NCBI RefSeq assembly: GCF_016906305.1
Contig: NZ_JADDOL010000003.1
Location: forward strand, 186,001-250,000
Source: Alloalcanivorax marinus
Lineage (GTDB): Bacteria > Pseudomonadota > Gammaproteobacteria > Pseudomonadales > Alcanivoracaceae
Reading direction: 5' to 3'
DNA length: 64,000 nucleotides
Part shown: in pieces, positions 4,710-38,635 of the stretch
How positions within the stretch are numbered: position 1 is the first letter of the stretch
How the letters are laid out: every line of letters begins with the position of its first letter
The notes under the pieces: generated by a model
The model's input: the letters and a program-made list of their open reading frames with translations, nothing else
The model's database searches: none
What the model was told of the DNA's origin: nothing
Program-made: the position numbers and the translations under genes

Positions 4710-6077
4710 ATGACCACCACCTTGTTCAGCGGCGGTCACGTACTGACCCAGGACGCCGAAGGCCGGGAATACCGCGACGGCTGCGTGCTGGTCCGCGACG
4801 ACCGCATCGCCTTCGTCGGCGCCGCCGCGGACCGGCCGATGGAGCCCGTGGACCGGGTCATCGACGTCACCGGCAAGCTGGTGATGCCAGGGCTGATCAA
4901 TGGCCACTCCCATCTGTGCATGGTGTTCGGCCGCACCCTGGGGCCGGAGAAGCGGCTGCTGGAGTGGCTCGACGTACAGATGCCGCTGATGGCGGCGTTC
5001 GACCAGGAAGCCATGTACGTGGCGCAGATGCTGGGTTGCCTGGAGAACCTGAAGAACGGCAATACTTCGGTGGTGGAGAATCTGTTTTCCACACACCCGG
5101 AAGGCTATCCGCCGGAAGACGCCGCCTTTCAGGCGATGCGCGATGCCGGCATCCGCGGCACCGTGGCGCGGGCTTTCGAAGGGCGCCATTTCCATCCCGA
5201 CTTCATGGAAACCCTGGATCAGCAGGCGCGCCGGGTCACCGACCTGGCGCACCGCTGGCAGGGCGCCGAGGACGACCGTCTGCGGCTGGCCATCGGACCG
5301 CTGCTGCCCTGGTGCATGACCGAGGAGATGTACCGGGAAACCCGCGCCCTGGCGAACGATCTGTCCCTGTGCCTGCACATGCACGTGGCGGAATCACCGG
5401 AATTCAATCAGCTGATCGCCCGGCATTTCGGTCGCGATATCCGCCAGGTGGAACTGCTTGAGGAAACCGGTTGCCTGGGGCCGGACGTGCAGGTGGCGGC
5501 GGTGTCGGATGTGTCCGCCCACGAAATCGAGCTGCTGGCGCGCAGCGACACCCGCGTGCTGCTGGACCCGCCCACGCGGCTGTTCTGGGGCACCGGCTTT
5601 CCCGCTCTGAAACCGTTCCTGGACGCGGGGCTCACCTGCGGCCTGGCCACCAACGGGCCGGCCGCCAACTGCGGCCAGGACCTGTTCGAAAGCATGAAAT
5701 ACGCCTGCGCCACCGCCAAGACCGCGGCCAACGATCCGCTGGCGCTGAGCCGCCACCGGGTGCTGCGCATGGCCACCAGCGAGGGCGCCCGCGCCATCGG
5801 CCGCGACGGCCAGACCGGCCGCCTGGAAGCCGGTTTGAAAGCGGACCTGATCACCGTCGATCTGCGGCAACCGCACCTGACGCCCAACCTGGATACCGCC
5901 GCGGCGCTGGTGTTCAGCGCCAAGGGCACGGACGTGCGCGATGTGATGGTGGACGGCCGGTTGCTGATCGAGAACCGCGAGCCGCTGTTTATCGACGAGG
6001 GCGCGTTGCTGCGTCAGGCCGAACAGATCGCCCGGCGCTGCCTGCGCGCCGCCGGACTCTCTCACTTATGTCCATAA
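4710..6077 (+). CDS. Amidohydrolase-superfamily protein with incomplete metal site (module copy 1)
   Basis: A 455-residue protein of the TrzN/AtzB/8-oxoguanine-deaminase-like amidohydrolase group (urease-type small beta domain at both ends, TIM barrel between). Present: the strand-1 motif H66-S-H68 in 'MPGLINGHSHL', and 'LHMHVAE' (H225, E228). Missing by eye: the usual A-H-C histidine is replaced in 'VAAVSDVSAHEI' (about 262-272), and the catalytic Asp of T-D-G becomes Asn315 in 'ATNGPAANCGQDLF'. The same changes occur in the paralogue at 18483, so this is a conserved subfamily and not decay. Relatives hydrolyse C-N bonds in heterocycles. By context it may help make 2-aminophenol from a precursor, but activity is unproven. 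It sits between the IclR and ABC-permease genes. Confidence 0.8.
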   Translation: MTTTLFSGGHVLTQDAEGREYRDGCVLVRDDRIAFVGAAADRPMEPVDRVIDVTGKLVMPGLINGHSHLCMVFGRTLGPEKRLLEWLDVQMPLMAAFDQEAMYVAQMLGCLENLKNGNTSVVENLFSTHPEGYPPEDAAFQAMRDAGIRGTVARAFEGRHFHPDFMETLDQQARRVTDLAHRWQGAEDDRLRLAIGPLLPWCMTEEMYRETRALANDLSLCLHMHVAESPEFNQLIARHFGRDIRQVELLEETGCLGPDVQVAAVSDVSAHEIELLARSDTRVLLDPPTRLFWGTGFPALKPFLDAGLTCGLATNGPAANCGQDLFESMKYACATAKTAANDPLALSRHRVLRMATSEGARAIGRDGQTGRLEAGLKADLITVDLRQPHLTPNLDTAAALVFSAKGTDVRDVMVDGRLLIENREPLFIDEGALLRQAEQIARRCLRAAGLSHLCP

Positions 6078-6104
6078 AAAATCCCTATCAATAAGGAGAA
6101 TTCA

Positions 6105-6848
6105 GTGTTCGTTAAGGTGGGATCCATCATTGCCGCGGTACTGGCGTGGCTCGGGCTGTCCTTTCTGTTTCCGGAAACGATTTTGCCCGGGCCCTTTCAG
6201 ACGACAATGGTGCTGGCGGAAAACTTCGCCAACGGGGAAATTTTCCAACACCTGTTCGCCACGCTCGGGCGCGTCCTGGGGGGCCTGGCGCTGGCCATGG
6301 CCATCGGCATCCCGGTGGGCGTGATCATGGGCGTGAACCGCTTCGCCGAGAAAACCCTGGATATCTGGGTGATGGTGGCGCTGACGGTACCCAGCCTCTG
6401 TTATGCCATCTTCGCGTTCATCTGGATCGGCCTCAACGAAACCGCCGCCATCGTCGCCATCGGCCTCACCTCGGCGCCCTCCATCGCCATCAACCTGTGG
6501 GAAGGGGTCAAGAACATCGACACCCGCCTGTTCAAGATGGCCAAGGTTTTCAATGCGTCGCGCTGGGTGATCATCCGTCGCGTGCTGTTCCCTCAGGTGC
6601 TGCCTTACATCATGGCGTCGCTGCGCTTCGGCCTGGGCATCGTCTGGAAAATCACCGTACTGGTGGAGCTGCTCGGGCGGCCGGACGGTGTCGGTTTCGA
6701 ACTCTTCTACTGGTACCAGCTCGCCGACATGCAGCAAGTGCTGGCGTGGACCCTGCTGTTCACCATCGTGATGCTCTTTATCGAGCTGGTCATCCTGCAA
6801 AACATGGAGCGCAAATTGTTCTCCTGGCGTCCCAAGGTGAAGATCTAA
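6105..6848 (+). CDS. ABC transporter permease, TauC/SsuC type (module copy 1)
   Basis: A 247-residue inner-membrane protein with about six hydrophobic segments. The cytoplasmic EAA-type loop is recognisable ('MAKVFNASRWVIIRRVLFPQ', near residues 145-164). The start is GTG at 6105 with AAGGAG seven bases upstream. The family imports small organic molecules such as taurine, alkanesulfonates, nitrate, aromatics or pyrimidine precursors together with a periplasmic binding protein. The stop overlaps the ATPase start (TAATG), a sign of stoichiometric expression. Large blocks are identical to the second copy at 19887-20630, including a central run of more than 40 residues, so both probably carry related solutes. 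Confidence 0.92.
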   Translation: MFVKVGSIIAAVLAWLGLSFLFPETILPGPFQTTMVLAENFANGEIFQHLFATLGRVLGGLALAMAIGIPVGVIMGVNRFAEKTLDIWVMVALTVPSLCYAIFAFIWIGLNETAAIVAIGLTSAPSIAINLWEGVKNIDTRLFKMAKVFNASRWVIIRRVLFPQVLPYIMASLRFGLGIVWKITVLVELLGRPDGVGFELFYWYQLADMQQVLAWTLLFTIVMLFIELVILQNMERKLFSWRPKVKI

Positions 6849-7651
6849 TGGATAAAGGAATCAGCATCAAAGGCCTGGTCAAGGAATACCCGGGCCACCG
6901 TCAAGGCGAACGCGGGCATCGCGTGCTCAACGGCCTGGACCTGTCCATCGCCGACAACGAATTCGTCTGCATTCTCGGCCCGTCCGGCTGTGGCAAGTCC
7001 ACTCTGCTGAACACGCTGTCCGGTCTCGACAACGACTACAGCGGCGAGGTGAGTTTCGGCGGCCGTCCGGTGGGCCGCAACGGCAAGCCGCCGGTGAAGA
7101 TGGGCTACCTGTTCCAGGACCCGCGCCTGCTGCCCTGGCTGACCGCCGAGCGCAACGTGGACTTCGTGCTGGAAAACTCCGACGTGCCCAAGGCCCGCTG
7201 GGCGGAGATCAAGAACCACTATTTCGCGCTCACCGGCCTGGAAGCCTTCCGGCATCACTACCCCCATGAACTCTCCGGCGGCATGGCCCAACGCCTGTCC
7301 CTGGTGCGCGCCCTGGCCATCGAGCCGGACGTGCTGTTCATGGACGAGCCGTTCAGCGGCCTTGATGAACTCACCGCCCGGCGCATGCGGGTGGACCTGC
7401 TGGACATCTGGAGCCGCACCGGCAAGACCATTCTGTTCATCACCCACAACAGCTATGAGGCCACCTTCCTGGCCGACCGGGTGGTGGTGCTTTCCCAGGG
7501 CAACATCCGCGAGGAGATCCGCGTGGAGGTGCCCCGTCCGCGGGATTACGACGACCCCGCCCTGTTCGATATCAGCAAACAGGTGTCCGCCAACTTTATC
7601 GCCGCCGCCGAAGAAGCGGAGCGTGCGCGCCTGGAACAACAGGCCGGCTGA
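6848..7651 (+). CDS. ABC transporter ATPase, TauB/SsuB type (module copy 1)
   Basis: A 267-residue nucleotide-binding subunit. It shows Walker A 'GPSGCGKST', Q-loop 'LFQDPRLLPW', signature 'LSGGMAQRLSLVRAL', Walker B 'VLFMDEPFSGLD' and the switch histidine in 'FITHN'. The start is fixed by the TAATG overlap with the permease gene; a longer open frame begins inside the permease gene but has no ribosome site. It powers import by the 6105 permease with the binding protein at 7691. It differs from the copy at 20627 mainly in a short insertion after residue 15 ('GHRQGERGHR') and at the C-terminus. Confidence 0.93.
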   Translation: MDKGISIKGLVKEYPGHRQGERGHRVLNGLDLSIADNEFVCILGPSGCGKSTLLNTLSGLDNDYSGEVSFGGRPVGRNGKPPVKMGYLFQDPRLLPWLTAERNVDFVLENSDVPKARWAEIKNHYFALTGLEAFRHHYPHELSGGMAQRLSLVRALAIEPDVLFMDEPFSGLDELTARRMRVDLLDIWSRTGKTILFITHNSYEATFLADRVVVLSQGNIREEIRVEVPRPRDYDDPALFDISKQVSANFIAAAEEAERARLEQQAG

Positions 7652-7659
7652 CGCCGGCC
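7642..7659. other. Intercistronic hairpin before binding-protein gene 1
   Basis: GGCCGGC and GCCGGCC pair around the TGAC that contains the ATPase stop codon. It is a compact 7-bp stem without a U-tract. Together with the stem at 8698-8731 it flanks the binding-protein gene, an arrangement often linked to mRNA segment stability. Confidence 0.35.
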
Positions 7660-7690
7660 CTACTACAACGAGTACTTCGGGAGCATACCG

Positions 7691-8686
7691 ATGAAACACG
7701 AAAAATCGCAGATCAAGGCAGTACTGGGGATTCCTCTGTTGATCGTCGCCTTGGGGTCGCTGGCGTTCGGCGCTCGCGCCGACGACACGCCGATTCGTCT
7801 CGCCGACATGGCGCAATCGCTCAACGGCATCGCCTCCCAGGTGATGATCGACCAGGAGCTGGACCATAAATACGGCGTGGACGTGAGCTACAAGGGCTAC
7901 CCCACGCTGGACGGTCTGTTCAACGCCATCCGCGGCAAGCAGGTGGACCTGGGCTTCGGCGGCTGGACCGGCTTCGCCCAGTTCCGCGCCCAGGGCTATC
8001 CGGTGGTGAACATCTTCCCGGTGGGCCGGGGCGCCACCCTGGACGTGCTGGTGCCCACCGACTCCGAGCTGCAAAGCCTGGACGACCTGAAAGGCAAGCG
8101 CGTGGCCTCCTACGCCGGCGCCGCCGGCACCGCCACCGTGCTGCTGCGCGTCATGCTCAATGATTTCTACGGCTTCGATCCGGCCGCCACCGGCGATCTG
8201 CAATACGTGGGCCCGGGCATCATCCCGGCGCTGCTCGACAGTGGCGACGTGGACGCCGGCCTGCTGTTCGATCCGCTGGCCACCAAGGCCATGGCCTCCG
8301 GCAAGTACCGCAGCATCGGCAACCTGGGTGACCTCTATAAAGAGAAAACCGGCGACGATTTCCTGTGGATTTCCCTGGCCACCAACGACGACTTCGCCCG
8401 GGCCAACCCCGAGGCACTGGCCGGCTTTCTCAAGGGCTGGGTGGACGCGGTGGAGTACGTGAAAAGCCACCCGGCCGTGTTCGAGGCCTACGGCAAAAAG
8501 CTGGGTCTGGACCAGGCCGGCATCGACCAGCTGGCGGAACGCGTGATCCGTGACTACGCCACCACCTGGAACGACGACTACATCAACGGCCTGAAGGCTT
8601 TCGCGGAGCGTGCCAGCCGGGTGATGGACAAGGGGTTCCTGGACGAGCTGCCCGAAGAGGCGTTCTCCACCCGATACGCCCCTTGA
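7691..8686 (+). CDS. Periplasmic solute-binding protein, TauA/SsuA/NMT1-like (copy 1)
   Basis: A 331-residue exported protein. The Sec signal peptide (residues 1-30) ends in 'FGARA-DD'. The mature part has the two-lobe NMT1/TauA pattern with 'DLGFGGWTGFAQFRAQG' near residues 75-95 and the hinge-like 'KGKRVASYAGAAGTATVLL' around 135-155. It would capture the solute for the 6105/6848 transporter. It is closer to the protein at 22508 than to the one at 21436: both share 'ADMAQSLNGIAS'-type N-termini and 'RVMDKG-LDELP' C-termini. The ligand is unknown. By context it may be an aromatic or heterocyclic precursor of 2-aminophenol. Confidence 0.9.
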   Translation: MKHEKSQIKAVLGIPLLIVALGSLAFGARADDTPIRLADMAQSLNGIASQVMIDQELDHKYGVDVSYKGYPTLDGLFNAIRGKQVDLGFGGWTGFAQFRAQGYPVVNIFPVGRGATLDVLVPTDSELQSLDDLKGKRVASYAGAAGTATVLLRVMLNDFYGFDPAATGDLQYVGPGIIPALLDSGDVDAGLLFDPLATKAMASGKYRSIGNLGDLYKEKTGDDFLWISLATNDDFARANPEALAGFLKGWVDAVEYVKSHPAVFEAYGKKLGLDQAGIDQLAERVIRDYATTWNDDYINGLKAFAERASRVMDKGFLDELPEEAFSTRYAP

Positions 8687-8697
8687 GCTGATGCGGT

Positions 8698-8731
8698 CCG
8701 GCGGGGTGCTTGATACAGGGAGCCCCGCCGG
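8698..8731. other. 9-bp GC hairpin between binding protein 1 and the alpha/beta hydrolase
   Basis: CCGGCGGGG and CCCCGCCGG pair perfectly around a 16-base loop, without a following T-run. The position directly after an abundant periplasmic protein suits a 3'-end stabiliser or partial attenuator that separates transporter from enzyme expression. Confidence 0.4.
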
Positions 8732-8765
8732 TCCTCCCTCTGAAACCAAGAAGGAAATACCTGAA

Positions 8766-9659
8766 ATGTCTTTCGATGATCTTCCCGACCAGCCGCCGAT
8801 CTACCCGCGCGAAGCCGAGGACTACGCGCGGGAGGCGTTGGACCGGTCCCACCAGGCGGCGGCACGGGTCAGGAATCATATGGACATCCGCTACGGCGAT
8901 GATTACTGGCAGAAGGTCGACATCTATCTGCCGGACGACGCGGCGCTCGCCGATTTGCCGGTGCTGCTGTTCGCCCATGGCGGCGCCTGGACCCACGGCT
9001 ATAAGGAGTGGCTGGGGCTGATGGCTCCGGTGATCGTCGAAACCCCGGCGATCTTTGTGTCGGTGTCCTATCGCCTGGCGCCGGAATGTCGCTACCCGGG
9101 GCCGCTGGAAGACTGCATCGCGGCGCTGGCCTGGGTGCACGACCACATCGCCGACTACGGGGGCGACCCGGACCGGCTTTACGTGGGCGGACACTCCGCC
9201 GGTGGTCACCTGTTCGCGCTGGCGGCGCTCAAGCCGCACCTGCTGGCCCGGGCCGGTCTGCCGGCCAACCTGATCAAGGGCTGCCTGCCGATCTGTTCCC
9301 AGCTCAATCTGGCGTTCGACGATCCGGCGCCGGGCAGTGGCGAGGCGCGCATCTACGAGATGTTCCTGGCCGATCGAAAGGACGACCGGGACGCCAGCCC
9401 GCTGCACAACATCGGCCCCAATCCGCCGCCGTTCTTTATTGCCCATGGCGGAGAGGACTTCCCGCGCATTATCGAAAGCAACCGGCTGATGATCGCCGCC
9501 TTGAAGGAGACCGGCGCGGCGGTGCGCTCCCATGTGGAGCCGGGCGCCACCCATTTCGGACTGGCCCTGCAGATGGAGAACCCGCAGTCGCCGGTGGTGC
9601 GTACCCTGCGCGACTGGCTGTCGAACGGACCGTCCGGTTTCGACGGGCCCCTGCACTGA
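8766..9659 (+). CDS. Alpha/beta-hydrolase, arylformamidase/esterase-like
   Basis: A 297-residue cytoplasmic alpha/beta hydrolase. It has the oxyanion-hole motif 'HGGAW' (about residue 61-65), the nucleophile elbow 'GHSAGGH' (about 140-146), and a late catalytic His in 'PGATHFGL'. This pattern matches the arylformamidase/kynurenine-formamidase and hormone-sensitive-lipase-like branch. The start at 8766 is chosen for the AAGGAA upstream and the 'MSFDDLP' beginning; earlier in-frame starts would run through the intergenic hairpin. Located between the ABC module and the dioxygenase genes, it could remove an acyl, formyl or carbamate group to release 2-aminophenol. That role is an inference; it could equally be a generic esterase. 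Confidence 0.8.
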   Translation: MSFDDLPDQPPIYPREAEDYAREALDRSHQAAARVRNHMDIRYGDDYWQKVDIYLPDDAALADLPVLLFAHGGAWTHGYKEWLGLMAPVIVETPAIFVSVSYRLAPECRYPGPLEDCIAALAWVHDHIADYGGDPDRLYVGGHSAGGHLFALAALKPHLLARAGLPANLIKGCLPICSQLNLAFDDPAPGSGEARIYEMFLADRKDDRDASPLHNIGPNPPPFFIAHGGEDFPRIIESNRLMIAALKETGAAVRSHVEPGATHFGLALQMENPQSPVVRTLRDWLSNGPSGFDGPLH

Positions 9660-9690
9660 AGCCGGCCACGGGGCCGCGAAACGGAGAGCA

Positions 9691-10041
9691 ATGATGGCAC
9701 GTTCCGACACGGTGAAACGCTACCTGGGCGCCATGGAAGCCGGTGACCTGGAAACGGTTCTCGGCTGCTTCGAGGACGACGGCACGGTGGTCTCGCCGGT
9801 GTACGGCCAGGTCCCGGTACGGCCTTTCTACGAAAAGCTGTTCGCCGACACGGTGCGCGCCGGGGTCCGTCTGGAGCAGCTGTATTTCAGTGAGGACGGC
9901 GCCGGCATCGCCGCGCACATCGACTATTTCTGGGAACGCCAGGACGGGTCCCGAATGCACGTGGACATGGTGGATCTGTTTCGATTCCGCGCGGAATCGG
10001 AACGCATTGAGCGCCTGTCGATCGTGTTCAAGCCGTCCTGA
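9691..10041 (+). CDS. SnoaL/NTF2-like small protein
   Basis: A protein of 115-116 residues with the NTF2/SnoaL cone-fold pattern: N-terminal helices 'VKRYLGAMEAGDLETVLGCF', then 'DDGTVVSPVYG' and C-terminal strands with 'MVDLFRFRAESERIERLSIVF'. Two adjacent ATGs (9691, 9694) are possible; GGAG at 9683-9686 is better spaced for 9694. Members of this fold act as isomerases, dehydratases, cyclases or merely ligand binders. The gene lies 31 bases after the hydrolase and 87 before amnB, so it probably belongs to the pathway, perhaps handling an unstable intermediate. No catalytic residue set could be recognised. Confidence 0.75.
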   Translation: MMARSDTVKRYLGAMEAGDLETVLGCFEDDGTVVSPVYGQVPVRPFYEKLFADTVRAGVRLEQLYFSEDGAGIAAHIDYFWERQDGSRMHVDMVDLFRFRAESERIERLSIVFKPS

Positions 10042-10113
10042 AAGGCGGCTCGCAGGAAGCGCTTTTTTGTCGCTACCGACGACCCCGCGCCAACAGAAAG
10101 CCGGGGCCGATAA

Positions 10114-11040
<927 letters not shown>

Positions 11041-11070
11041 GCCGGCCGCCCACAGACGAGGAGAACAAAG

Positions 11071-11880
11071 ATGACCGTTGTATCCGCTTTTCTGGTGCCC
11101 GGCAGCCCGCTGCCGTACCTGCGTCAGGACAACCCGCCCTGGCAGCCGCTGGCCGCCGGTTATGAAAAAGTCCGTGACGCCCTGCAGGCCTCCAAGCCGG
11201 ACGCGCTGCTGATCTATTCCACCCAATGGTTCGCGGTGCTCGACCAGCTGTGGCAGGCGCGTCCGCATCTGACCGGCGAGCACGTGGACGAAAACTGGTA
11301 CGAGTACGGCGACCTGACCATCGACCTGCGTTCCGACACCGATCTGGTGGACGCCTGCATCGCCGGCTGCGCCGACATCGGCATCCGCGCCAAGGGCGTC
11401 AATTACGACCACTTCCCGGTGGACACCGGCACCATCGTCGCCAACAACTTCGTCAACCCCGGCGGCAAGATTCCGCTGGTGATCGCCGCCAACAATCTCT
11501 ACCACGGCCCCGGCGAGACCGAAAAGCTGGCGGCCATGGCGGTGGAGCAGGCCGACAAACAGGGCAAGCGCCTGGCGGTGCTGGCCATCGGTGGCCTGTC
11601 GGCGGCCTATTTCGACGAGGAGATCGACATCGCCGACGACCGCATCCGCCATGACGCGGACGACGCCGCCAACCGCCAACTGCTCGACGCCCTGGCCAAC
11701 GGCGACCGGCGCTCCGCCAGTGAGGCCCTGGGCCGTTTCAATGAAGGCACCAAGGCGGACATGGGCATGAAACACCTGTCCTGGCTGTTCGGCGCCACCG
11801 GCGACTTCAAGGGCGCGCGGGTGCACGCCTATGGCCCCACCTACGGCGCCGGCGCCGCGGTGGTGGAATTCAATTTGTAA
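11071..11880 (+). CDS. amnA: 2-aminophenol 1,6-dioxygenase, non-catalytic alpha subunit
   Basis: A 269-residue LigB-fold paralogue of AmnB. The metal ligands are absent: the first His site reads 'FLVPGSPLPYL' and the second 'YSTQWF', as is typical of the structural alpha subunit of the heterotetramer. Conserved fold parts remain ('VIAANNLYHGPGETEKLA', C-terminal 'YGAGAAVVEFNL'). It partners the catalytic subunit 30 bases upstream, and both have strong AGGAG sites. A strong intrinsic terminator follows 23 bases after the stop, so the two dioxygenase genes can form a separate abundant transcript. Confidence 0.88.
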   Translation: MTVVSAFLVPGSPLPYLRQDNPPWQPLAAGYEKVRDALQASKPDALLIYSTQWFAVLDQLWQARPHLTGEHVDENWYEYGDLTIDLRSDTDLVDACIAGCADIGIRAKGVNYDHFPVDTGTIVANNFVNPGGKIPLVIAANNLYHGPGETEKLAAMAVEQADKQGKRLAVLAIGGLSAAYFDEEIDIADDRIRHDADDAANRQLLDALANGDRRSASEALGRFNEGTKADMGMKHLSWLFGATGDFKGARVHAYGPTYGAGAAVVEFNL

Positions 11881-11903
11881 CCTTTCGATCGCGCTCACGA
11901 TCC

Positions 11904-11931
11904 GCGCGGCCCGCGGGCCGCGCCTTTTTTT
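11904..11931 (+). terminator. Strong intrinsic terminator inside the amn operon
   Basis: The stem GCGCGGCC / GGCCGCGC (8 perfect GC-only pairs, CGCG loop) is followed by C and seven Ts. It lies between amnA and amnC, whose start is only 35 bases further on. This is the canonical form of a Rho-independent terminator, and partial read-through would set the amnBA to lower-pathway expression ratio. No internal promoter for amnC is obvious in the remaining 34 bases. Confidence 0.85.
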
Positions 11932-11965
11932 CGACGCGATCCTCGCCTTCTTCAGGAGTGCGCAA

Positions 11966-13423
11966 TTGGTTTCCGAGTACCGTAACTACATCAATGGCCG
12001 GTTCGTCGAGTCCGCGAAGACCTTCGAGGATCTGAACCCGGCCAACGGCGAGCCGGTGGCACGGGTCCACGAGGCCGACGCCGAACTGGTCGACCAGGCG
12101 GTGCGCGCCGGTCGCGCCGCGCTGCCCGCCTGGCGGCGCACCAGCGCCGAACAGCGCGCCCAGTACCTGGAGCGCATCGCCGCCGTGATCGAACGGCGCG
12201 CCGACGATTTTCTGGCCGCGGAAGTGGCCGACACCGGCAAGCCGGTGTCCGTGGCGTCGCGGGTGGACATTCCCCGGGGCGCCGCCAACTTCCGCGCCTT
12301 CGCCGCCATGATCCGCATGAGCGGCGGCGAGGTGTACGAAACGCCCACCCCGGAAGGGCGGGCGCTGAACTATTCCCTGCGCCAGCCGCTCGGCGTGGTG
12401 GGCATCATCTCCCCCTGGAACCTGCCGCTGCTGCTGTTTACCTGGAAGGTGGCGCCGGCCCTGGCCTGCGGCAACGTGGTGGTGGCCAAGCCCTCCGAGG
12501 AAACCCCGGGCACCGCCACGTTGCTGGCGGAGGTGATGGACGAGGTGGGCCTGCCCGCCGGCGTGTTCAATCTGGTGCACGGCTTCGGGCCGGGCTCCGC
12601 CGGCGCCGCCATCGTCGATCACCCGGATGTGGACGGCATCACCTTCACCGGTGAGTCGAAGACCGGCGCCACCATCATGCGCAACGTGGCCGACAAGGTG
12701 CGGCCGGTGTCGTTCGAGCTGGGTGGCAAGAACGCCGCCCTGGTGTTCGCCGACGCCGACTTCGACAAGGCGGTGGCCGGCGTGGCCCGTTCCAGTTTTC
12801 TCAATACCGGCCAGGTGTGTCTGTGCACCGAACGCGTCTACGTGGAGCGGCCCATTTTCGAGCGCTTCGTGGCGGCGCTGGCGGAGCAGGCCCGGGCCCT
12901 GCGCCCCGGCGACCCGCTGGACCCGGAGACCACCCTGGGGCCGCTGATTTCCCGTCAGCACCGCGACAAGGTGCTGTCCTATTACGCGCTGGCCCGGGAG
13001 GAGGGCGCCACCGTGGTCACCGGCGGCGGCGTGCCGACGCTGGGCGGCAAGCTCGACAACGGCTGCTATGTGGAGCCGACCATCTGGACCGGCCTGGATC
13101 AGTCCGCCCGCTGTCTGCAGGAAGAAGTGTTCGGCCCGGTCTGCCACGTGATGCCCTTCGACACCGAGGAGCAGGCCGTGGAACTGGCCAACGACAGCCG
13201 GTACGGCCTGGCCAGCGCTCTCTGGACCAGCAACCTGGATCGCGGCCACCGGCTGGCGGCGGAGATCGACGCCGGGCTGGTGTGGCTGAACACCTGGTTC
13301 CTGCGGGATCTGCGCACCCCCTTCGGCGGCATGAAGCTGTCCGGGCTGGGGCGCGAGGGCGGCCGCCATTCGCTGGATTTCTATTCCGAACTGAAGAACG
13401 TCTGCGTGCAGATGTCGCAATGA
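11966..13423 (+). CDS. amnC: 2-aminomuconic 6-semialdehyde dehydrogenase
   Basis: A 485-residue NAD-dependent aldehyde dehydrogenase of the hydroxymuconic/aminomuconic semialdehyde branch. The catalytic Cys is in 'TGQVCLC' (Cys285), the general base is Glu251 in 'ELGGKN', and the oxyanion Asn is in 'SPWN' (152). The start is taken as TTG at 11966 with AGGAG seven bases upstream; this gives the family's usual length and N-terminus 'VSEYRNYINGRF', whereas the longer frame would read through amnA and the terminator. It oxidises the ring-cleavage product to 2-aminomuconate. A TTG start just downstream of a terminator suggests deliberately lower expression. Confidence 0.88.
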   Translation: MVSEYRNYINGRFVESAKTFEDLNPANGEPVARVHEADAELVDQAVRAGRAALPAWRRTSAEQRAQYLERIAAVIERRADDFLAAEVADTGKPVSVASRVDIPRGAANFRAFAAMIRMSGGEVYETPTPEGRALNYSLRQPLGVVGIISPWNLPLLLFTWKVAPALACGNVVVAKPSEETPGTATLLAEVMDEVGLPAGVFNLVHGFGPGSAGAAIVDHPDVDGITFTGESKTGATIMRNVADKVRPVSFELGGKNAALVFADADFDKAVAGVARSSFLNTGQVCLCTERVYVERPIFERFVAALAEQARALRPGDPLDPETTLGPLISRQHRDKVLSYYALAREEGATVVTGGGVPTLGGKLDNGCYVEPTIWTGLDQSARCLQEEVFGPVCHVMPFDTEEQAVELANDSRYGLASALWTSNLDRGHRLAAEIDAGLVWLNTWFLRDLRTPFGGMKLSGLGREGGRHSLDFYSELKNVCVQMSQ

Positions 13424-13440
13424 AGCCGGGAGGCGTTGCC

Positions 13441-14250
13441 ATGCAAACGACGATTACCGAAACCCTGGCCCGCGCCGCTCAGCGGCTGCGGGCCGCCCAC
13501 GAGACCGGACAACCCTGCTCGCCGGTGCGCGACCTGATCGACGCCGACGACCTGGACAGTGCCTACCGGGTTCAGGACATCAACAGCCGCTACTGGGAGA
13601 GCCGCGGCCGCCGGGTGGTGGGCGGCAAGATCGGTCTTACCGCCCGGGTGGTGCAGCAACAGCTGGGCGTGGACCAGCCCGACTACGGCCTGCTGTTCGC
13701 CGATATGGCGGTGGCCGACGGCGGCCTGATTCCCTGGGGCCAGGTGCTGCAGCCCAAGGTGGAAGCGGAGGTGGCGCTGGTGCTGGCCCGGGACCTGAGC
13801 CACGACCAGATCACCCTGGCGGACCTGATCGGCGCCACCGACTACGTGCTGCCGGCCCTGGAAGTGGTGGGCAGCCGCATCGCCGACTGGGACATCACCA
13901 TCGCCGACACGGTGGCCGACAACGCCTCCTGCGGCGCCTATGTGCTGGGCACCACGCCGCGTTCCCTGCGCGAGGTGGACCTGAGCCTGTGCGGCATGAA
14001 CCTTACCCGCCGGGGCGAGCCGGTGTCGGTGGGCGCCGGTGCCGCCTGCCTGGGCAACCCGCTCAATGCGGCGCTGTGGCTGGCCAATACCCTGGCCCGG
14101 GCGCGCCGCCCCCTGCGCGCCGGCGACCTGATTCTTACCGGCGCCCTGGGGCCGATGGTGGCGGCCCGCCCCGGCGACCGCTTCCGCGCCTGTATCGAGG
14201 GCCTGGGGTCGGTGTCGGTGGGCTTCGCGAAGGAGAACGACGATGACTGA
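13441..14250 (+). CDS. amnF: 2-oxopent-4-enoate (2-hydroxypenta-2,4-dienoate) hydratase
   Basis: A 269-residue member of the hydratase/decarboxylase (FAH-like) family. Metal-ligand acids appear in '[10 protein letters not shown]' (about residues 102-111), with the following '[14 protein letters not shown]' and '[11 protein letters not shown]' typical of MhpD/DmpE-type enzymes. The start at 13441 has GGGAGG at good spacing; an earlier ATG at 13422 overlaps the amnC stop but lacks a site. It hydrates 2-oxopent-4-enoate to 4-hydroxy-2-oxovalerate. It is distinguished from the decarboxylase at 16231 by its longer N-terminus and '[17 protein letters not shown]'. It overlaps the next gene by 8 bases. 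Confidence 0.85.
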
Positions 14251-15193
14251 CAAAATCAAAGTGGCGATCATCGGTTCCGGTAACATCGGCACCGATCTGA
14301 TGATCAAGGTGCTGCGCCACGGCGAGCAGCTGGAAATGGCCGCGCTGGTGGGCATCGACCCGGCGTCCGACGGCCTGGCCCGCGCCGAGCGTCTCGGCGT
14401 GACCGCCTGCGCCACCGGCGTGGAGGGCCTGATCGAGCTGCCGGTGTTCGAGCGGATCGGTCTGGTGTTCGACGCCACCTCCGCCGCCGCCCATCACCAC
14501 AACGAGAAAGTCCTGCGCGCCGCGCGCCCCGACCTGCGGGTGATCGATCTGACACCGGCGGCGATCGGCCCCTACTGCGTGCCGGTGGCCAACCTGGACG
14601 AGCACCTGGACGCGCTCAACGTGAACATGGTGACCTGCGGTGGCCAGGCCACCATTCCCATCGTCCATGCGGTGTCGGGCCTGGCCAAGGTGCACTACGC
14701 GGAAATCGTCGCCTCGATCTCCAGCAAGTCCGCCGGCCCCGGCACCCGCGCCAACATCGATGAGTTCACCGAAACCACGTCCCTGGCCCTGGAGAAAGTG
14801 GGCGGCGCCGAGAAGGGCAAGGCGATCATCGTGCTCAACCCGGCGGAGCCGCCGCTGTTGATGCGCGATACCGTCTATGTGTTCTGCGAGCCCTCCGATC
14901 CGGAGCCGATCCGTGCCGCCATCGAGGCCATGGTCGAGAAGGTCAACGCCTACGTCCCCGGTTACCGGCTCAAGCAGGACGTGCAGTTCGAGCATTACGG
15001 CGAGGACGAGCCGCTGTACATGCCCGGGGAAGGCGCCCGCGCGGGCATGAAGATTTCCGTGTTCCTGGAAGTGGAAGGCGCGGCCCATTACCTGCCGGCC
15101 TTCGCCGGCAACCTGGACATCATGACCTCGGCGGCGCTGGCCACCGGCGAACGGATGGCGTCCCGGTTGACCGGCGCGCCGGCCCAGGCTTGA
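14243..15193 (+). CDS. amnH: Acetaldehyde dehydrogenase (acylating)
   Basis: A 316-residue enzyme of the DmpF/BphJ/MhpF family, near full family length. The N-terminal Rossmann motif is '[13 protein letters not shown]' (residues 8-20). The catalytic Cys lies in '[11 protein letters not shown]' (about residue 132), and '[23 protein letters not shown]' follows, a run typical of this family. It converts acetaldehyde, NAD and CoA to acetyl-CoA, receiving the toxic aldehyde by channelling from the aldolase encoded 13 bases downstream. The start overlaps the hydratase stop region by 8 bases, indicating coupling. Confidence 0.93.
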
Positions 15194-15206
15194 GGGGGAA
15201 ACGACA

Positions 15207-16238
15207 ATGACAGCGAAACTCTATATTTCCGACGTCACCCTGCGTGACGGCTCCCACGCCATTCGCCACCAATACAGCGTGGACGACGTGAGGCGCATCG
15301 CCGCCGCCCTCGACCGGGCCAGGGTGGACTCCATCGAGGTGGCCCACGGCGACGGTCTGCGGGGCTCCTCGTTCAACTACGGCTTCGGCGCCCACACCGA
15401 CCTGGAATGGATCGAGGCGGTGGCGGATACGGTCCGCCACGCCAAGGTGGCGACCCTGCTGCTGCCGGGCATCGGTACTGTCCGGGACCTGCGCGACGCC
15501 CACGCCGCCGGCGCCTCCGTGGTGCGCGTGGCCACCCATTGCACCGAGGCGGATGTCTCCAAACAGCACATCGAGCTGGCCCGGGAACTGGGCATGGACA
15601 CGGTGGGCTTCCTGATGATGAGCCACATGACCACGCCGGCGGAACTGGCCCGCCAGGCCAAGCTGATGGAGGACTACGGCGCCACCACGGTGTATGTGGT
15701 GGACTCCGGCGGCGCGCTCACCATGAACGACGTGCGCGACCGCTTCCGTGCCTTCAAGGACGTGCTCAAGCCGGAGACCGGCACCGGCATGCACGCCCAC
15801 CACAATCTCAGCCTGGGCGTGGCCAACTCCATCGTCGCCGTGGAGGAGGGCTGTGACCGCATCGACGCCAGTCTGGCGGGCATGGGCGCCGGCGCCGGCA
15901 ACGCGCCCCTGGAAGTGTTCATCGCCGCCGCCGACCGCCTGGGCTGGGACCACGGCTGCGATCTGTACACCCTGATGGACGCCGCCGACGACATCGTGCG
16001 GCCGCTGCAGGACCGGCCGGTACGGGTGGACCGGGAAACCCTGGCGCTTGGCTACGCCGGCGTGTACTCCAGCTTCCTGCGCCACGCCGAGAACGCCGCT
16101 GCCCGTTATGGCCTGAAGACCGTGGACATCCTGGTCGAACTGGGCCGCCGCCGCATGGTCGGTGGCCAGGAAGACATGATCGTCGACGTGGCCCTGGACA
16201 TGCTCAAACATCGCCAACCGGAGACCGACCATGTCTGA
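15207..16238 (+). CDS. amnG: 4-hydroxy-2-oxovalerate aldolase
   Basis: A 343-residue class II aldolase (DmpG/BphI/MhpE family). The N-terminal '[18 protein letters not shown]' contains the catalytic Arg-Asp pair and His, and the metal site is '[11 protein letters not shown]' near residue 195. The C-terminal segment is the communication domain that docks the acylating dehydrogenase. It splits 4-hydroxy-2-oxovalerate into pyruvate and acetaldehyde. Placement directly after the dehydrogenase gene matches the obligate enzyme pair. It ends overlapping the decarboxylase start by 8 bases. Confidence 0.93.
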
Positions 16239-17016
16239 AACGGATATCCAGACCCTGGCCGAGCGGGTCGACGACGCCGCCCGCCAGGCCCGCGCCATCG
16301 ACCAGTTCGCCACCGGCAGCCTGACCGTGGAGGACGCCTACGCGGTGCAGGCCGCCTCGGTGGCGCGCCGCGTCCAGCGCGGCGAGGCGCCCATCGGCAT
16401 CAAGCTGGGCTTCACCAGCCGCGCCAAGATGGTACAGATGGGCGTGGAAGACCTGATCTGGGGGCGGCTCACCGACGCCATGCTGGTGGAGGAGGGCGGC
16501 GAAATCGACCTGGCCGCCTATGTGCACCCGCGGGTGGAACCGGAGCTGGCCTTTCTGATCGACAAACCCCTGGCCGGGCGGGTGACCCTGCCCCAGGCCC
16601 AGGCGGCCATCGGCGCGGTGGCGCCGGCCATGGAGATCATCGATTCCCGCTACCGGGACTTCAAATTCGACCTGCCCAGCGTGATCGCCGACAACGCCTC
16701 GTCCTCCGGGCTGGTGATCGGCGCCTGGCGCCGCGCCGACCTGGACATCGCCAACCTGGGCATGGTCATGAGCCTGGACGGCGAGGTACGTCAGGTCGGT
16801 TCCTCCGCCGCCATTCTTGGCCACCCGCTGCGCGCCCTGGTGGCCGCCGCCCGGCTGGTGGCGGAGGCGGGCATGAGCCTGCAGCCCGGCGACGTGGTGC
16901 TGGCCGGCGCCGCCACCGCCGCCGAGGCGCTGCGACCCGGCCAGCACGTGGATCTGCGGGTGCAGTACCTGGGCGGCGCCGAGTTCCATGTGGCCGGCCC
17001 GGGAGGCGCGTCATGA
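16231..17016 (+). CDS. amnE: 4-oxalocrotonate decarboxylase
   Basis: A 261-residue member of the same fold family as the hydratase at 13441. Acidic metal ligands lie in '[16 protein letters not shown]' (about residues 103-118), with '[23 protein letters not shown]', a run characteristic of DmpH/XylI-type decarboxylases. It removes CO2 from 4-oxalocrotonate (2-oxo-3-hexenedioate) to give 2-oxopent-4-enoate for AmnF, with which it normally forms a complex. No tautomerase gene of the 4-oxalocrotonate isomerase type is present. This suits the aminophenol route, where deamination of 2-aminomuconate delivers the keto acid directly. Confidence 0.87.
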
Positions 17017-17459
17017 GTGAGCAGCCCCGGGACGCTTCCGCGTCCCAGAGCAAGACCCTGGCCCACAAGGCCAAACCCCGGGGCCGCTTCCCCCATGTGA
17101 AGCGGGCCGGCGACTTCCTGTTCGTCTCCGGCACCAGCTCGCGCCGCCCGGACAACAGCTTCGTGGGCGCGGAGGTGGACGAAATGGGCGTTACCCGCCT
17201 GGACATCGAGGCCCAGACCCGGGCGGTGATCGACAACATCGCCGACATCCTGAACAGCGTCGACGCCGGCCTGGAGGACCTGGTGGAGGTGAGCTGCTTC
17301 CTGGTCAATATGAACGACTTCGGCGGTTTCAACCGGGTCTGGGGCGAGTATTTCGACGGCGACGGCCCCACCCGCACCACCGTGGCGGTCCACCAATTGC
17401 CCCATCCTTTGTTGCTGGTGGAAATGAAGGCGGTGGCCTACAAGCCGCTGCCCCGCTGA
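17013..17459 (+). CDS. amnD: 2-aminomuconate deaminase, RidA/YjgF family
   Basis: A 148-residue Rid-superfamily protein, longer than housekeeping RidA because of an N-terminal extension with '[22 protein letters not shown]'-like sequence, as in AmnD. It has the family's '[10 protein letters not shown]', '[14 protein letters not shown]' and the Arg/Glu pocket residues in '[12 protein letters not shown]' and 'LVEMKAVAY'. It hydrolyses the enamine/imine of 2-aminomuconate, releasing ammonia and 4-oxalocrotonate. Its presence is the main evidence that the operon handles 2-aminophenol and not catechol. The start overlaps the upstream stop (ATGA), and a hairpin follows the operon. Confidence 0.87.
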
Positions 17460-17483
17460 CGCTCTCCTCTCCTTCCCCTCTTC

Positions 17484-17516
17484 GCGGAGCGCCGTCGCGC
17501 TCCGCCCGCCTTCGTT
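17484..17516 (+). terminator. Probable terminator after the amn operon
   Basis: GCGGAGCGC and GCGCTCCGC pair perfectly (9 bp) around CGTC, followed by CCGCCTTCGTTTT. The stem is strong but the T-run is delayed, so termination may be partial. Confidence 0.55.
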
Positions 17517-17682
17517 TTCCGGACCCCTCTTCACACATTTGCGCCCCGCGGGTATGGAAACCGCGAGCCAGGGAGTTTTAAATGGTGGGACGGTCGGTGC
17601 GCCGGCGTCCGGGTTGTCCTGACCGCCCGGCCGGTCCCGACGGCTTGAGTTTTCAGCCCGACCCACTTTCCGGAACACAACA

Positions 17683-18462
17683 ATGAACAACAACGACAAC
17701 GCCTCCTCGCTGGACCGGATCCTGGACATCATGCTGATGTTCGCCGGCCACGGCCGGGTGGTGACGCGCAGGGAGATCGAACGGCGCTTCGGTCTGTCGC
17801 GCAGCTCCGCCTACCGTTACCTGCACAGCCTGCGCCGGCGCGGCCTGATCACCGCCATGGCGCGCAGCGGCGAGTTCGTGCTCAGCCCCGGCTTCGTGCG
17901 CCTGGTGTCGCTCACCGAGGAATACGGCCGCGACATGTCCGAAATCGCCGCGCCGATCCTGCGCGAACTGGCCGGCATCACCGGCGAGAGTGCCATGATT
18001 ACCCACCGCGCCGGCGACCGGGTGCTGTGCGTGCGCTTCCAGGACGGGCCGAGAGCGGTAAGAGTGGGGCTCGGCCCCGCCGCCAACACGCCCCTGTACC
18101 GGGGGGCCTCGGCCAAGGTGCATCTGGCCCATATGAGCGACGCCGACATTCGCGACGTACTGGATTACTGCCGCACGCTGCCGGAGGACGAGTTTCCCCG
18201 TACGGCGGAGGACCTGGAGCGCGAACTCGCGGAAATCCGTGAGCGTGGCTACGCCACCAGCGCCGGCGAGCTGGAAACCAGCGTGGTCAGCGTGGCGGTG
18301 CCCATTATCGGCTCCGACCACAATCTGCTGGGCGTGGTGGCGGTGGCCTCCGTGGGGGAGCGCGCCCGGCACCCGGAGGACGGTCTGCTCGACCATCTGC
18401 GCATCGCCGCCGCCCGCATTGTCCGGGAGTGGGATCGCGCCAAGCCCCGGGATTTGTTCTAG
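17683..18462 (+). CDS. IclR-family transcriptional regulator (module copy 2)
   Basis: A 259-residue paralogue of the regulator at 3923. The DNA-binding part is almost the same ('RREIERRFGLSRSSAYRYLH'); differences concentrate in the effector domain, for example 'MSDADIRDVLDYCRTLPEDEF' against 'MPEYDIQRVLEHCATLSPEQW'. This suggests the same or similar DNA sites but possibly a different inducer. It starts the second module and lies 20 bases before the amidohydrolase gene. The 223 bases upstream, after the amn operon, presumably hold its promoter, though no clear -35/-10 pair stands out. Confidence 0.9.
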   Translation: MNNNDNASSLDRILDIMLMFAGHGRVVTRREIERRFGLSRSSAYRYLHSLRRRGLITAMARSGEFVLSPGFVRLVSLTEEYGRDMSEIAAPILRELAGITGESAMITHRAGDRVLCVRFQDGPRAVRVGLGPAANTPLYRGASAKVHLAHMSDADIRDVLDYCRTLPEDEFPRTAEDLERELAEIRERGYATSAGELETSVVSVAVPIIGSDHNLLGVVAVASVGERARHPEDGLLDHLRIAAARIVREWDRAKPRDLF

Positions 18463-18482
18463 ATCGACCCTCAGGGGGATGA

Positions 18483-19847
18483 ATGACCACCACATTGTTT
18501 GAAGGGGGCCGGGTCCTGACGCTGGATGCGGACGGCAACGACTACCAGGACGGCTGCGTGCTGGTGCGTGACGACCGGATCGACTACGTGGGGCCCCGCG
18601 ACGGTCTGCCAGCGGGGCCCGTGGATCGGACCCTGGATGTCGGCGGCAAGCTGGTGATGCCCGGGCTGGTCAACGGCCACACCCATCTGAGCATGGTGTT
18701 CGGCCGGACTCTGGGCCCGGAAAAGCGACTGATGCAGTGGCTCGATCAGCAGTTGCCGATCATCGAAGCGTTCGACGAAGAAGCCATGTACGTGGCGCAG
18801 CTGTTGGGCTGTCTGGAAAACCTCAAGAACGGCAACACCACCCTGGTGGAAAATCTGGTGGCGCCACACCCGCCCGGCTACACGCCGGAGCACGCGGTGC
18901 TGCAGGCGATGCGCGACGCCGGGGTGCGCGCCACCCTGGCGCCCGGGTTTCTCGGGCGCAATTTCCGGCCCAGCTACACGGAAAGCCTGGACCTGCAGGC
19001 GCGACGCATCACCGACCTGGCCCACGACTGGCACGGTGCCGACAACGACCGGCTGCGTCTGGCCACCGGTCCGCTGCTGCCCTGGTGCATGGACGAGGCC
19101 ATGTTCCGTCAGACCCGGGCCCTGGCGGACGACCTGGGCATCACCCTGCACATGCACGGCGCCGAGACCAAGGAGTTCCACGCCCTGATTGCCCGGCATT
19201 TCGGGCGCGACATCCGCCAGGTGGAACTGCTCGCCGAAACCGGCTGCCTGGGCCCCGACGTGCAACTGGCCGCGGTGTACGACATCTCGCCCGACGAGGT
19301 CAGGTTGCTCGCCGAGAGCGACACCCGCGTGTTGCTGGACCCGCCCACCCGGCTGTTCTGGGGCACCGGCTTCCCGCCGATTCATCCGTTCCTGGAGGCC
19401 GGTGTCACCTGTGGATTGGCCACCAACGGGCCCGCCGCCAACTGCGGCCAGGACCTGTTCGAGAGCATGAAATACGCCTGCGCCACGGCCAAGACCGCCA
19501 AAGGGGACCCGGACGCCCTGGACGCGGCCCGCGCGCTGCGCATGGCCACCTCCGAGGGGGCCCTGGCCATTGGCCGCGAGGGGCAGGTGGGTAGCCTGGC
19601 GCCGGGCTTGAAGGCGGACATCATCACCCTCGACCTGCACCAGCCGCACCTGGCGCCGACCCTGGATGTCAGGGCCGCGCTGGTGTACAGCGCCGGTGGC
19701 ACCGATGTGCGCGACGTGATGGTGGATGGCCGCCTGCTGATCGAAAACCGGCGCGCTCTGTTCCTGGATGAGTCGGCCCTGCTGGAGCAGGCCGGACGGC
19801 TGGCCCGCCGCTGTGCCCGGGAGGCGGGGATCGCGCTGCCCGGTTGA
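18483..19847 (+). CDS. Amidohydrolase-superfamily protein with incomplete metal site (module copy 2)
   Basis: A 454-residue paralogue of the 4710 protein. It retains 'VNGHTHLSMVFGRTLGPEKR' with the H-x-H pair near residues 66-68, and 'LHMHGAETKEF' near 222-232. It also lacks the A-H-C histidine ('LAAVYDISPDEV') and has Asn for the catalytic Asp ('ATNGPAANCGQDLF'). The start follows AGGGGGATGA. The region around the substrate pocket, 'LDPPTRLFWGTGFP', is identical in both copies, while residues after the H-x-H helix and around 'APHPPGYTPEH' differ. A related but distinct substrate is plausible. The reaction is unknown, since standard hydrolytic chemistry needs the missing residues. Confidence 0.8.
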   Translation: MTTTLFEGGRVLTLDADGNDYQDGCVLVRDDRIDYVGPRDGLPAGPVDRTLDVGGKLVMPGLVNGHTHLSMVFGRTLGPEKRLMQWLDQQLPIIEAFDEEAMYVAQLLGCLENLKNGNTTLVENLVAPHPPGYTPEHAVLQAMRDAGVRATLAPGFLGRNFRPSYTESLDLQARRITDLAHDWHGADNDRLRLATGPLLPWCMDEAMFRQTRALADDLGITLHMHGAETKEFHALIARHFGRDIRQVELLAETGCLGPDVQLAAVYDISPDEVRLLAESDTRVLLDPPTRLFWGTGFPPIHPFLEAGVTCGLATNGPAANCGQDLFESMKYACATAKTAKGDPDALDAARALRMATSEGALAIGREGQVGSLAPGLKADIITLDLHQPHLAPTLDVRAALVYSAGGTDVRDVMVDGRLLIENRRALFLDESALLEQAGRLARRCAREAGIALPG

Positions 19848-33118: not shown

Positions 33119-33175
33119 GGTGGCTCCTGCCATGGAACTTCAGAGGGCCGCGCGGGCGGCCCGTATAAGGATCAC

Positions 33176-33571: not shown

Positions 33572-33597
33572 TGTCAGGGTCCTTGTGATGAAGCGGC

Positions 33598-34563: not shown

Positions 34564-34685
34564 GGTTTTTATTCTCCTTCCTGTGCCTGGCGTCCGAAGA
34601 CGACGCCGGCTTCAAGTGGTTGTGCGGGTGAAGGGGTACTTTCCTGAATCCGGCGCCGGGGCGGCAACCGTTAAATCCCGGGAAG

Positions 34686-34700
34686 GTCCACATAATGGAC
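34686..34700. promoter_or_regulatory. Candidate IclR operator, copy 1
   Basis: GTCCACATAATGGAC is a palindrome with 5-base arms GTCCA/TGGAC and a 5-base centre. It repeats at 34792 with a different centre, which indicates conservation of the arms only, as for a dimeric repressor site. Confidence 0.6.
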
Positions 34701-34791
34701 GCCGGCGTTCATCACCCGATGGACGTGCCACGCAGGATACTCGGAAATGCGCGTATACCGGGTCATGGCGAAGTCCGGTTATGATTAAAAC

Positions 34792-36374: not shown

Positions 36375-36391
36375 CGACTTCAGGAGAAACC

Positions 36392-38624: not shown

Positions 38625-38635
38625 CAGGAGGCGTC

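Follow-up and report, generated by a model that had tools for sequence, protein, structure and literature searches.

A 64,000-nucleotide stretch of the Alloalcanivorax marinus genome (assembly GCF_016906305.1, contig NZ_JADDOL010000003.1, positions 186,001 to 250,000 of the forward strand; hereafter, the window) encodes two amidohydrolases, AHS1 and AHS2 (proteins P0001 and P0002), on either side of an operon for the degradation of 2-aminophenol. We found that these proteins belong to a real, monophyletic clade that is under purifying selection and has an altered active site, in which a His and an Asp conserved in relatives are both replaced. The clade branches from the subtype III deaminase/chlorohydrolase group, and AHS1 and AHS2 are probably working members of a distinct amidohydrolase subfamily.

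Two catalytic residues are replaced throughout the subfamily

Translation of the two open reading frames (ORFs) showed that both are open over their full length (455 amino acids for AHS1 and 454 for AHS2). The proteins are 73% identical across 453 aligned residues, and their scores against Amidohydro_1 (PF01979; 151.9 bits for AHS1 and 158.3 bits for AHS2, with a cut-off of 25) place them in the amidohydrolase superfamily (AHS). H66, H68, E123, H225, E228, A264, D267, D286, R290, W293, and N315 are identical, with the same numbering, in both. The phmmer alignment of P0001 with AtzA (4v1x), ungapped around the motif sites, pairs H66 with His66, H68 with His68, H225 with His243, E228 with Glu246, A264 with His276, and N315 with Asp327 (AtzA native numbering was converted by hand, as the printed chain numbering minus 20). 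The metal ligands of AtzA are His66, His68, His243, His276, and Asp327 (PMC4356373). For subtype III, the highly conserved catalytic machinery has been described as consisting of the Asp, the bridging His, and the Glu (PMC12828455). From the alignment and the published ligands of AtzA, it follows that AHS1 and AHS2 retain the Glu as well as the three His that bind metal and lack the Asp and the remaining His. A first-pass annotation of this DNA had read the motifs in much the same way. Its claims that the H-x-H and H/E residues are kept and that Asn stands in place of the Asp of a T-D-G motif hold for both proteins, whereas its "Ala/Val" at the A-H-C histidine was right for Ala but not for Val, which is the next residue.

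To compare the subfamily with its relatives, we searched genome contigs for homologs and obtained 37 loci (L007 to L043). The scan relied on six exact 8-residue peptides, none of which spans residues 264, 267, 286, 290, or 315, and because of this exact-match requirement members below about 60% identity may have been missed. L007 to L025 and the two window proteins formed the subfamily set, i.e., 21 rows from 18 proteobacterial genomes (Alloalcanivorax, an Alcanivorax metagenome-assembled genome [MAG], Pigmentiphaga, a Burkholderiales MAG, Bradyrhizobium, Rhodopseudomonas, Hyphomicrobiales MAGs, and an alphaproteobacterial MAG). The outgroup set comprised 23 rows: L026 to L042, four other amidohydrolases from the window's genome, L053, and L054. 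L043, a fragment covering residues 325 to 444, was dropped from the row counts, and L044 to L049, which have the same residues as the subfamily, were not counted since matching coordinates assign them to genomes already represented.

Residue 264 is Ala (17/21) or Gly (4/21) in the subfamily and residue 315 is Asn in all 21 rows, whereas all 23 outgroup rows have His at 264 and Asp at 315, so the joint loss cannot be put down to chance. The strand-1 HxH motif was found in the 20 rows that cover it (L024 begins inside the gene) and the strand-5 His (H225) in 21/21. Set against the metal center of subtype III, the subfamily therefore has HxH and the strand-5 His and lacks the strand-6 His and the strand-8 Asp throughout. 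E228 is also kept in 22 of the 23 outgroup rows, L042 having Gln. In addition, D267, D286, R290, and W293 are present in 21/21 subfamily rows and in 0/23 outgroup rows, and this invariant set suggests that the site has been rebuilt rather than left to decay.

In a tree built with IQ-TREE (L018 and L024 omitted), a branch with 100/100 support separates the 19 subfamily rows from the rest, and their stem measures 1.16 changes per site. L026 is the outgroup row closest to them and joins with a support of 99/99, a point where the program warns that long branches meet; it carries the canonical residues, and its gene cluster also holds a molybdoenzyme of the xanthine dehydrogenase type and another amidohydrolase. 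The ratio of nonsynonymous to synonymous substitution rates (dN/dS) was 0.06 to 0.31 across ten pairwise NG86 comparisons of amidohydrolase genes, indicating conservation and not decay. The monophyly, the selection, and the fixed replacement residues together bear out the first-pass view that the subfamily is maintained and that its active site is altered.

In a search for more divergent members among evenly drawn genomes, the subfamily was detected in 1/369 genomes of the class (E ≤ 1e-110) and in 2/398 genomes of the phylum (E ≤ 1e-80), the window's genome being included in each count, and neither sample added a genus to the window's own. A plasmid search returned 337 records at E ≤ 1e-20, all below 60% identity and at most 33.9% identical among the 25 matches listed. 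We found no description of the subfamily in the open-licence PubMed Central literature searched, and a limited look at open-licence articles gave no precedent for the loss of the strand-6 His on top of that of the Asp.

The AlphaFold2 model of P0001, built from 35 rows, has a mean predicted local distance difference test (pLDDT) score of 93.4 and a predicted template modeling (pTM) score of 0.94. Its top Foldseek match in the Protein Data Bank is AtzA 4v1x (template modeling [TM] score, 0.92; root mean square deviation, 2.2; identity, 30%; E 2.9e-42), with adenosine-type deaminases, isocytosine deaminase, and TrzN among the further matches and NatAM (6sj0) lower. Strand 6 is predicted at 260 to 263, followed by A264, strand 7 at 282 to 285, followed by D286, and strand 8 at 310 to 312, shortly ahead of N315. 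With strand 7 ending at 285, D286 would have the place on this strand that the lost His had on strand 6, and it falls between the two positions that have lost their residues. The residues equivalent to the AtzA pocket, mapped by hand from the phmmer alignment, are mostly hydrophobic or aromatic (W86, W201, W293, F126, M71, and M91), which fits a flat aromatic substrate.

The closest folds, AtzA and then adenosine-type deaminases, and the best curated profiles, deoxyadenosine deaminase and N-ethylammeline chlorohydrolase, would be those expected of an ordinary amidohydrolase or deaminase in which another side chain occupies the exact canonical positions and which has the chemistry and substrates of AtzA or of the adenosine-type deaminases. 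We consider this very unlikely. Among the best 25 of 46 NCBIfam families for P0001 and of 35 for P0002, no deaminase or chlorohydrolase model (the equivalogs NF005557, NF004701, and others were compared) exceeded its curated cut-off, the best scores being 280.6 bits against a cut-off of 522 for P0001 (5'-deoxyadenosine deaminase) and 262.5 against 609 for P0002. Moreover, the alignment is ungapped at the sites, and His or Asp occurs in the two canonical columns in 0/21 members, so that the finding by which the first-pass annotation would have been refuted, a His and an Asp at the canonical positions, did not appear in the sequences. Finally, the neighboring genes serve 2-aminophenol, not purines.

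Gene neighborhood and 2-aminophenol degradation

The genes between AHS1 and AHS2 constitute a 2-aminophenol meta-cleavage operon with one gene per step (Table 1). The best matches of AmnB and AmnA are solved 2-aminophenol 1,6-dioxygenases, and all components that define a 2-aminophenol cluster (AmnA/AmnB, semialdehyde dehydrogenase, 2-aminomuconate deaminase, and lower pathway) are present, the decarboxylase scoring below its curated cut-off. Each flank of the operon carries a cassette with the order IclR regulator, amidohydrolase, ATP-binding cassette (ABC) permease, ATPase, and substrate-binding protein. The cassettes are paralogous, with identities of 70% for IclR, 73% for the amidohydrolase, 86% for the permease, 78% for the ATPase, and 65 to 81% for the binding proteins, and the first additionally contains an HSL/BD-FAE-type alpha/beta hydrolase and a SnoaL-like protein. 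For the alpha/beta hydrolase, we considered the label arylformamidase, of which the HGGxW motif, present in 8/8 aligned rows, is presumably a hint; the label was not adopted, as the NCBIfam matches were of esterase/lipase type only and all below cut-off.

Table 1. Genes of the 2-aminophenol region and active-site positions of the two amidohydrolases (coordinates in the window)
Feature	Coordinates	Strand	Evidence
IclR-family regulator copy 1	3923..4705	+	Pfam IclR_C, HTH_IclR; start from gene call
Variant amidohydrolase copy 1 (AHS1, P0001)	4710..6077	+	Amidohydro_1; variant residues; model pLDDT 93.4
AHS1 H66-x-H68 metal motif, kept	4905..4913	+	Aligned to AtzA His66/His68
AHS1 H225 and E228, kept	5382..5393	+	Aligned to AtzA His243/Glu246
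AHS1 A264 at strand-6 His position of relatives	5499..5501	+	Residue check, row comparison
AHS1 D267, subfamily-specific	5508..5510	+	21/21 subfamily, 0/23 outside
AHS1 D286-P-P-T-R290, D286 and R290 subfamily-specific	5565..5579	+	21/21 vs 0/23; follows predicted strand 7 (282-285)
AHS1 N315 at strand-8 Asp position of relatives	5652..5654	+	Residue check, row comparison
ABC permease copy 1, start uncertain	6207..6848	+	PF00528 84.8 bits; gene call
ABC ATPase copy 1	6848..7651	+	PF00005 within ORF 6146-7651; gene call
NMT1/SsuA-type substrate-binding protein copy 1	7691..8686	+	Pfam NMT1
Alpha/beta hydrolase (HSL / BD-FAE type)	8766..9659	+	HGGAW, GHSAGG motifs; family matches
SnoaL-like small protein	9691..10041	+	PF12680
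amnB, 2-aminophenol 1,6-dioxygenase beta	10129..11040	+	8ihg_A E 9.5e-162
amnA, 2-aminophenol 1,6-dioxygenase alpha	11071..11880	+	3vsg_A E 2.2e-90
amnC, 2-hydroxymuconic/2-aminomuconic semialdehyde dehydrogenase	11966..13423	+	TIGR03216 830.8 bits, cut-off 693.25
2-Keto-4-pentenoate hydratase	13441..14250	+	NF008461 361.6 bits, cut-off 350
Acetaldehyde dehydrogenase (acylating)	14243..15193	+	PF09290
4-Hydroxy-2-oxovalerate aldolase	15207..16238	+	HMGL-like, DmpG_comm
2-Oxo-3-hexenedioate (4-oxalocrotonate) decarboxylase-like	16231..17016	+	Best match TIGR03218 235.8 bits, below cut-off 350.55
2-Aminomuconate deaminase, Rid family	17013..17459	+	6izh E 2.4e-57
IclR-family regulator copy 2	17683..18462	+	Family match; 70% identity to copy 1
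Variant amidohydrolase copy 2 (AHS2, P0002)	18483..19847	+	73% identical to AHS1
AHS2 H66-x-H68, kept	18678..18686	+	Residue check
AHS2 H225 and E228, kept	19155..19166	+	Residue check
AHS2 A264 at strand-6 His position of relatives	19272..19274	+	Residue check, row comparison
AHS2 D286-P-P-T-R290	19338..19352	+	Translation, residue check
AHS2 N315 at strand-8 Asp position of relatives	19425..19427	+	Residue check, row comparison
ABC permease copy 2, start uncertain	19908..20630	+	PF00528 85.6 bits; gene call
ABC ATPase copy 2	20627..21409	+	PF00005
NMT1/SsuA-type substrate-binding protein copy 2	21436..22437	+	Family match
NMT1/SsuA-type substrate-binding protein copy 3	22508..23503	+	81% identical to copy 1

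The search for homologs and their gene context, which the first-pass annotation had proposed, showed that the subfamily and an NMT1-type ABC importer are inherited together as one block: amidohydrolase, permease, ATPase, and binding protein occur together in 17/18 genomes, window included. The block was found in two settings. In the first, it is accompanied by IclR and the alpha/beta hydrolase, and amnBA and the deaminase gene adjoin it in 4/4 Pigmentiphaga-type genomes (L017, L019, L020, and L021), as do amn genes in 3/5 Alloalcanivorax/Alcanivorax genomes. The second setting has a LysR regulator on the opposite strand and an oxygenase related to HsaA and HPAH-C2, and was seen in 7/7 sufficiently long Bradyrhizobium/Rhodopseudomonas/Hyphomicrobiales loci, six of which also have a flavin reductase. 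A third setting, that of L022, consists of a Bmp-type importer, the amidohydrolase, amnB, amnA, and a gamma-glutamyltranspeptidase-family gene, which perhaps replaces the second hydrolase. No NMT1-type binding protein was matched in the L022 genome at E ≤ 1e-20, in a search made without a positive control.

Two observations concern the surroundings of individual loci. The Bmp-type (nucleoside-like) importer of L022 (5221-14871) is unrelated to the NMT1-type importer and constitutes a non-homologous replacement of it. In Pigmentiphaga kullae (L020, 17300-21272), a sulfatase, a MarR regulator, and a TRAP transporter lie beside amnB and are possible further upper-pathway genes.

Near-constant co-occurrence with the importer, together with the loss of two of the three catalytic-machinery residues, would also suit a pseudoenzyme, i.e., a ligand- or metal-binding sensor, a chaperone, or a partner of the importer or regulator that has no catalytic activity. 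We regard this as quite improbable because, wherever they can be seen, the Glu and all three metal-binding His show no variation. New polar residues are also fixed nearby, an outcome that drift would not produce at a dead site, and the L022 gene stays with amnBA although its importer is unrelated.

The first-pass annotation had tied the subfamily to 2-aminophenol catabolism, a claim that was upheld in part. Besides the pathway operon between the two copies, amnBA adjoins the subfamily gene in 8/18 genomes, window included, but 9/18 have no amnB match (the remaining one, that of L024, is outside the tally). On these counts, the connection with 2-aminophenol is genuine for roughly half of the family as known and was not seen in the other half. 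Among the 12 named subfamily genomes searched for amnB at E ≤ 1e-30, 3 had a match and 9 did not. A phenol-ortho-hydroxylase-like gene is present in 7 of the 9 genomes without an amnB match. The semialdehyde dehydrogenase was matched at E ≤ 1e-150 in 4/6 subfamily genomes, two of them without amnB (57% and 64% identity), which is uninformative since the same enzyme also serves catechol pathways.

The absence of amnB matches from half of the genomes, and the different oxygenase in most of these, could mean that amidohydrolase and importer form a module for nitrogen scavenging in general, which flanks amn genes by chance. This explanation is unlikely in our view: adjacency to amnBA recurs in three different arrangements, on the opposite strand (four Pigmentiphaga-type genomes), collinear (Alloalcanivorax), and directly after the gene (L022), and amnB is rare, being found in 5/369 genomes of the class, in one of which (the window's) the subfamily was detected. 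Within 46 Alcanivoracaceae genomes, the subfamily occurs in 5 and amnB in 3, all 3 being among those 5. One of the amnB matches in the class sample (L062, genome G091; 77% identity) is reported with an internal TAA, which may be a real break or an edge effect.

Elsewhere in the window, a proline racemase family gene (635-1681) lies upstream of the first cassette. A second catabolic island (32243-41437) comprises Amidohydro_2 and TctC receptor genes on the minus strand, then an IclR gene, three genes of the FAA hydrolase family, and one for an HpcH/HpaI aldolase, with TctB and TctA following. At 44026-47999, a gene for a FAN1-type VRR-NUC nuclease adjoins a DEAD_2/Helicase_C_2 helicase gene.

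Proposed reaction and its alternatives

Taking sequence and neighborhood together, we give roughly an even chance to AHS1 and AHS2 being Zn(His)3 enzymes that hydrolyze or ring-open an aromatic precursor after its import, Glu228 and perhaps Asp286 taking over from the lost relay. In this proposal, the ABC importer would take up a small aromatic molecule; this is probably related to 2-aminophenol, either as a cyclic or acylated derivative or as a close analog. The amidohydrolase, with a TrzN-like Zn(His)3-water center one residue further from the canon, would then hydrolyze or ring-open this compound, Glu228 acting as the proton carrier and Asp286, at the end of strand 7, perhaps standing in for the Asp-His relay. 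In Alloalcanivorax and Pigmentiphaga, the adjoining alpha/beta hydrolase would complete the liberation of 2-aminophenol for degradation by the amn gene products; in the Rhodopseudomonas/Bradyrhizobium lineage, the flavin-dependent ortho-hydroxylase would handle the product instead. That 2-aminophenol-type N,O-heterocycles or amides are the imported compounds is a guess from gene context, and so is each particular substrate: benzoxazolinone, benzoxazole, N-acyl-aminophenol, or 3-hydroxyanthranilate, none of which is preferable to the others. A catalytic Zn(His)3 site that has no Asp is known from TrzN (PMC4356373). We also count in favor of the proposal that all amnB genomes in the Alcanivoracaceae sample have the subfamily gene and that in L022, where the importer is unrelated, the amidohydrolase and amnBA nevertheless remain together.

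Several points weigh against hydrolysis of a 2-aminophenol precursor. The loss of two of the three residues of the catalytic machinery may mean that no canonical hydrolysis takes place, and in the relative NatAM the H290A substitution abolishes product formation (PMC7204872). The role given to D286 comes from its place after strand 7 in the model, not from coordinates, and which known enzyme is nearest varies with the method, as both the 35-row profile and the L022 homolog score highest with the deaminase 4f0r. As for the pathway, half of the genomes have no amnB match, and no alpha/beta hydrolase match was found beside the gene in L022 or in the Rhodopseudomonas/Bradyrhizobium loci. Lastly, 4 of the 5 amnB genomes in the class sample have no subfamily gene, indicating that amnB usually does without it.

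The main rival to hydrolysis is a non-hydrolytic reaction in which the substrate would sit on the metal at the emptied His and Asp positions, the enzyme acting as a lyase, decarboxylase, hydratase, or ring isomerase, for example in the decarboxylation of a carboxylated 2-aminophenol. Both water-activating residues are gone, the replacement of His by the small Ala or Gly could let the substrate reach the metal, a new Arg (R290) is fixed, and NatAM performs a condensation on the same fold (PMC7204872). However, NatAM retains the canonical His and Asp, its His being essential (PMC7204872), and in both Alloalcanivorax and Pigmentiphaga an alpha/beta hydrolase lies beside the gene, which is easier to reconcile with an amide or ester product than with decarboxylation. 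We hold this rival to be possible but doubtful.

A further alternative, put forward tentatively and with a similarly low probability, is a new type of active site in which the Asp-His pair of strands 8 and 6 has been given up for an acid on strand 7 (D286), supported by D267 and R290. Such an enzyme would catalyze the first step of an undescribed natural route into 2-aminophenol; it might, for instance, open a benzoxazole-type ring, in reverse of the NatAM reaction, and the alpha/beta hydrolase would take the second step. A new reaction type for the subfamily, as raised in the first-pass annotation, is a possibility, and the functional scope narrows to aromatic catabolism generally and to 2-aminophenol for part of the family.

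The fixed loss of two of three catalytic residues alongside a fixed new set constitutes a natural test of the limits within which a metal site can be rebuilt, and the gene block is a candidate upper pathway into 2-aminophenol. Nitrobenzene is a named peripheral route into 2-aminophenol (PMC3790839), and the natural precursor that feeds the pathway in the actinobacteria studied in PMC10470539 is unknown according to its authors.

Comparison with known systems

The amn clusters of Burkholderia xenovorans LB400 and Pseudomonas have the same central 2-aminophenol pathway genes (PMC3790839). They differ in that the word "amidohydrolase" is absent from the text of that article, where 2-aminophenol is supplied or, in some strains, derived from nitrobenzene.

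CbaA, the 6-chloro-2-benzoxazolinone hydrolase of Pigmentiphaga sp. DL-8, acts on a benzoxazolinone and comes from a genus where subfamily homologs adjoin amnBA, for which reason we considered it as the identity of AHS1 and AHS2. It reportedly yields 2-amino-5-chlorophenol and is said to be a 339-residue protein with another metal motif, and it was set aside on this reported size and motif. CbaA has been called a metal-dependent hydrolase (PMC11297187).

NatAM (6sj0), a benzoxazole-forming condensing amidohydrolase, is an AHS relative recovered by Foldseek, and its chemistry is of the 2-aminophenol type (3-hydroxyanthranilate); condensing amidohydrolases are also described in PMC12118335. In contrast to the subfamily, NatAM keeps His290 and Asp345 (PMC7204872) and is biosynthetic, with an identity of about 21 to 22%. 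The 5-methylthioadenosine/S-adenosylhomocysteine deaminase 4f0r, the best match of the 35-row profile and of the L022 homolog, has its canonical Asp opposite N315, and scores against curated deaminase models are below their cut-offs here.

AtzA, of AHS subtype III, is the top match of P0001 by both fold and phmmer, and HxH, the third His, and the Glu are conserved between them. It differs in genomic context and in having His276 and Asp327 as metal ligands (PMC4356373), where AHS1 has Ala264 and Asn315. TrzN (3ls9) shares the fold and likewise is without the strand-8 Asp, having Thr325, with its zinc close to three His (PMC4356373). These three His are present in the subfamily sequences, but the TrzN-type center as a whole is not: TrzN has kept His274, which hydrogen-bonds the zinc water (PMC4356373), whereas the subfamily has Ala or Gly there, and the strand-8 residue is Thr in TrzN and Asn in the subfamily.

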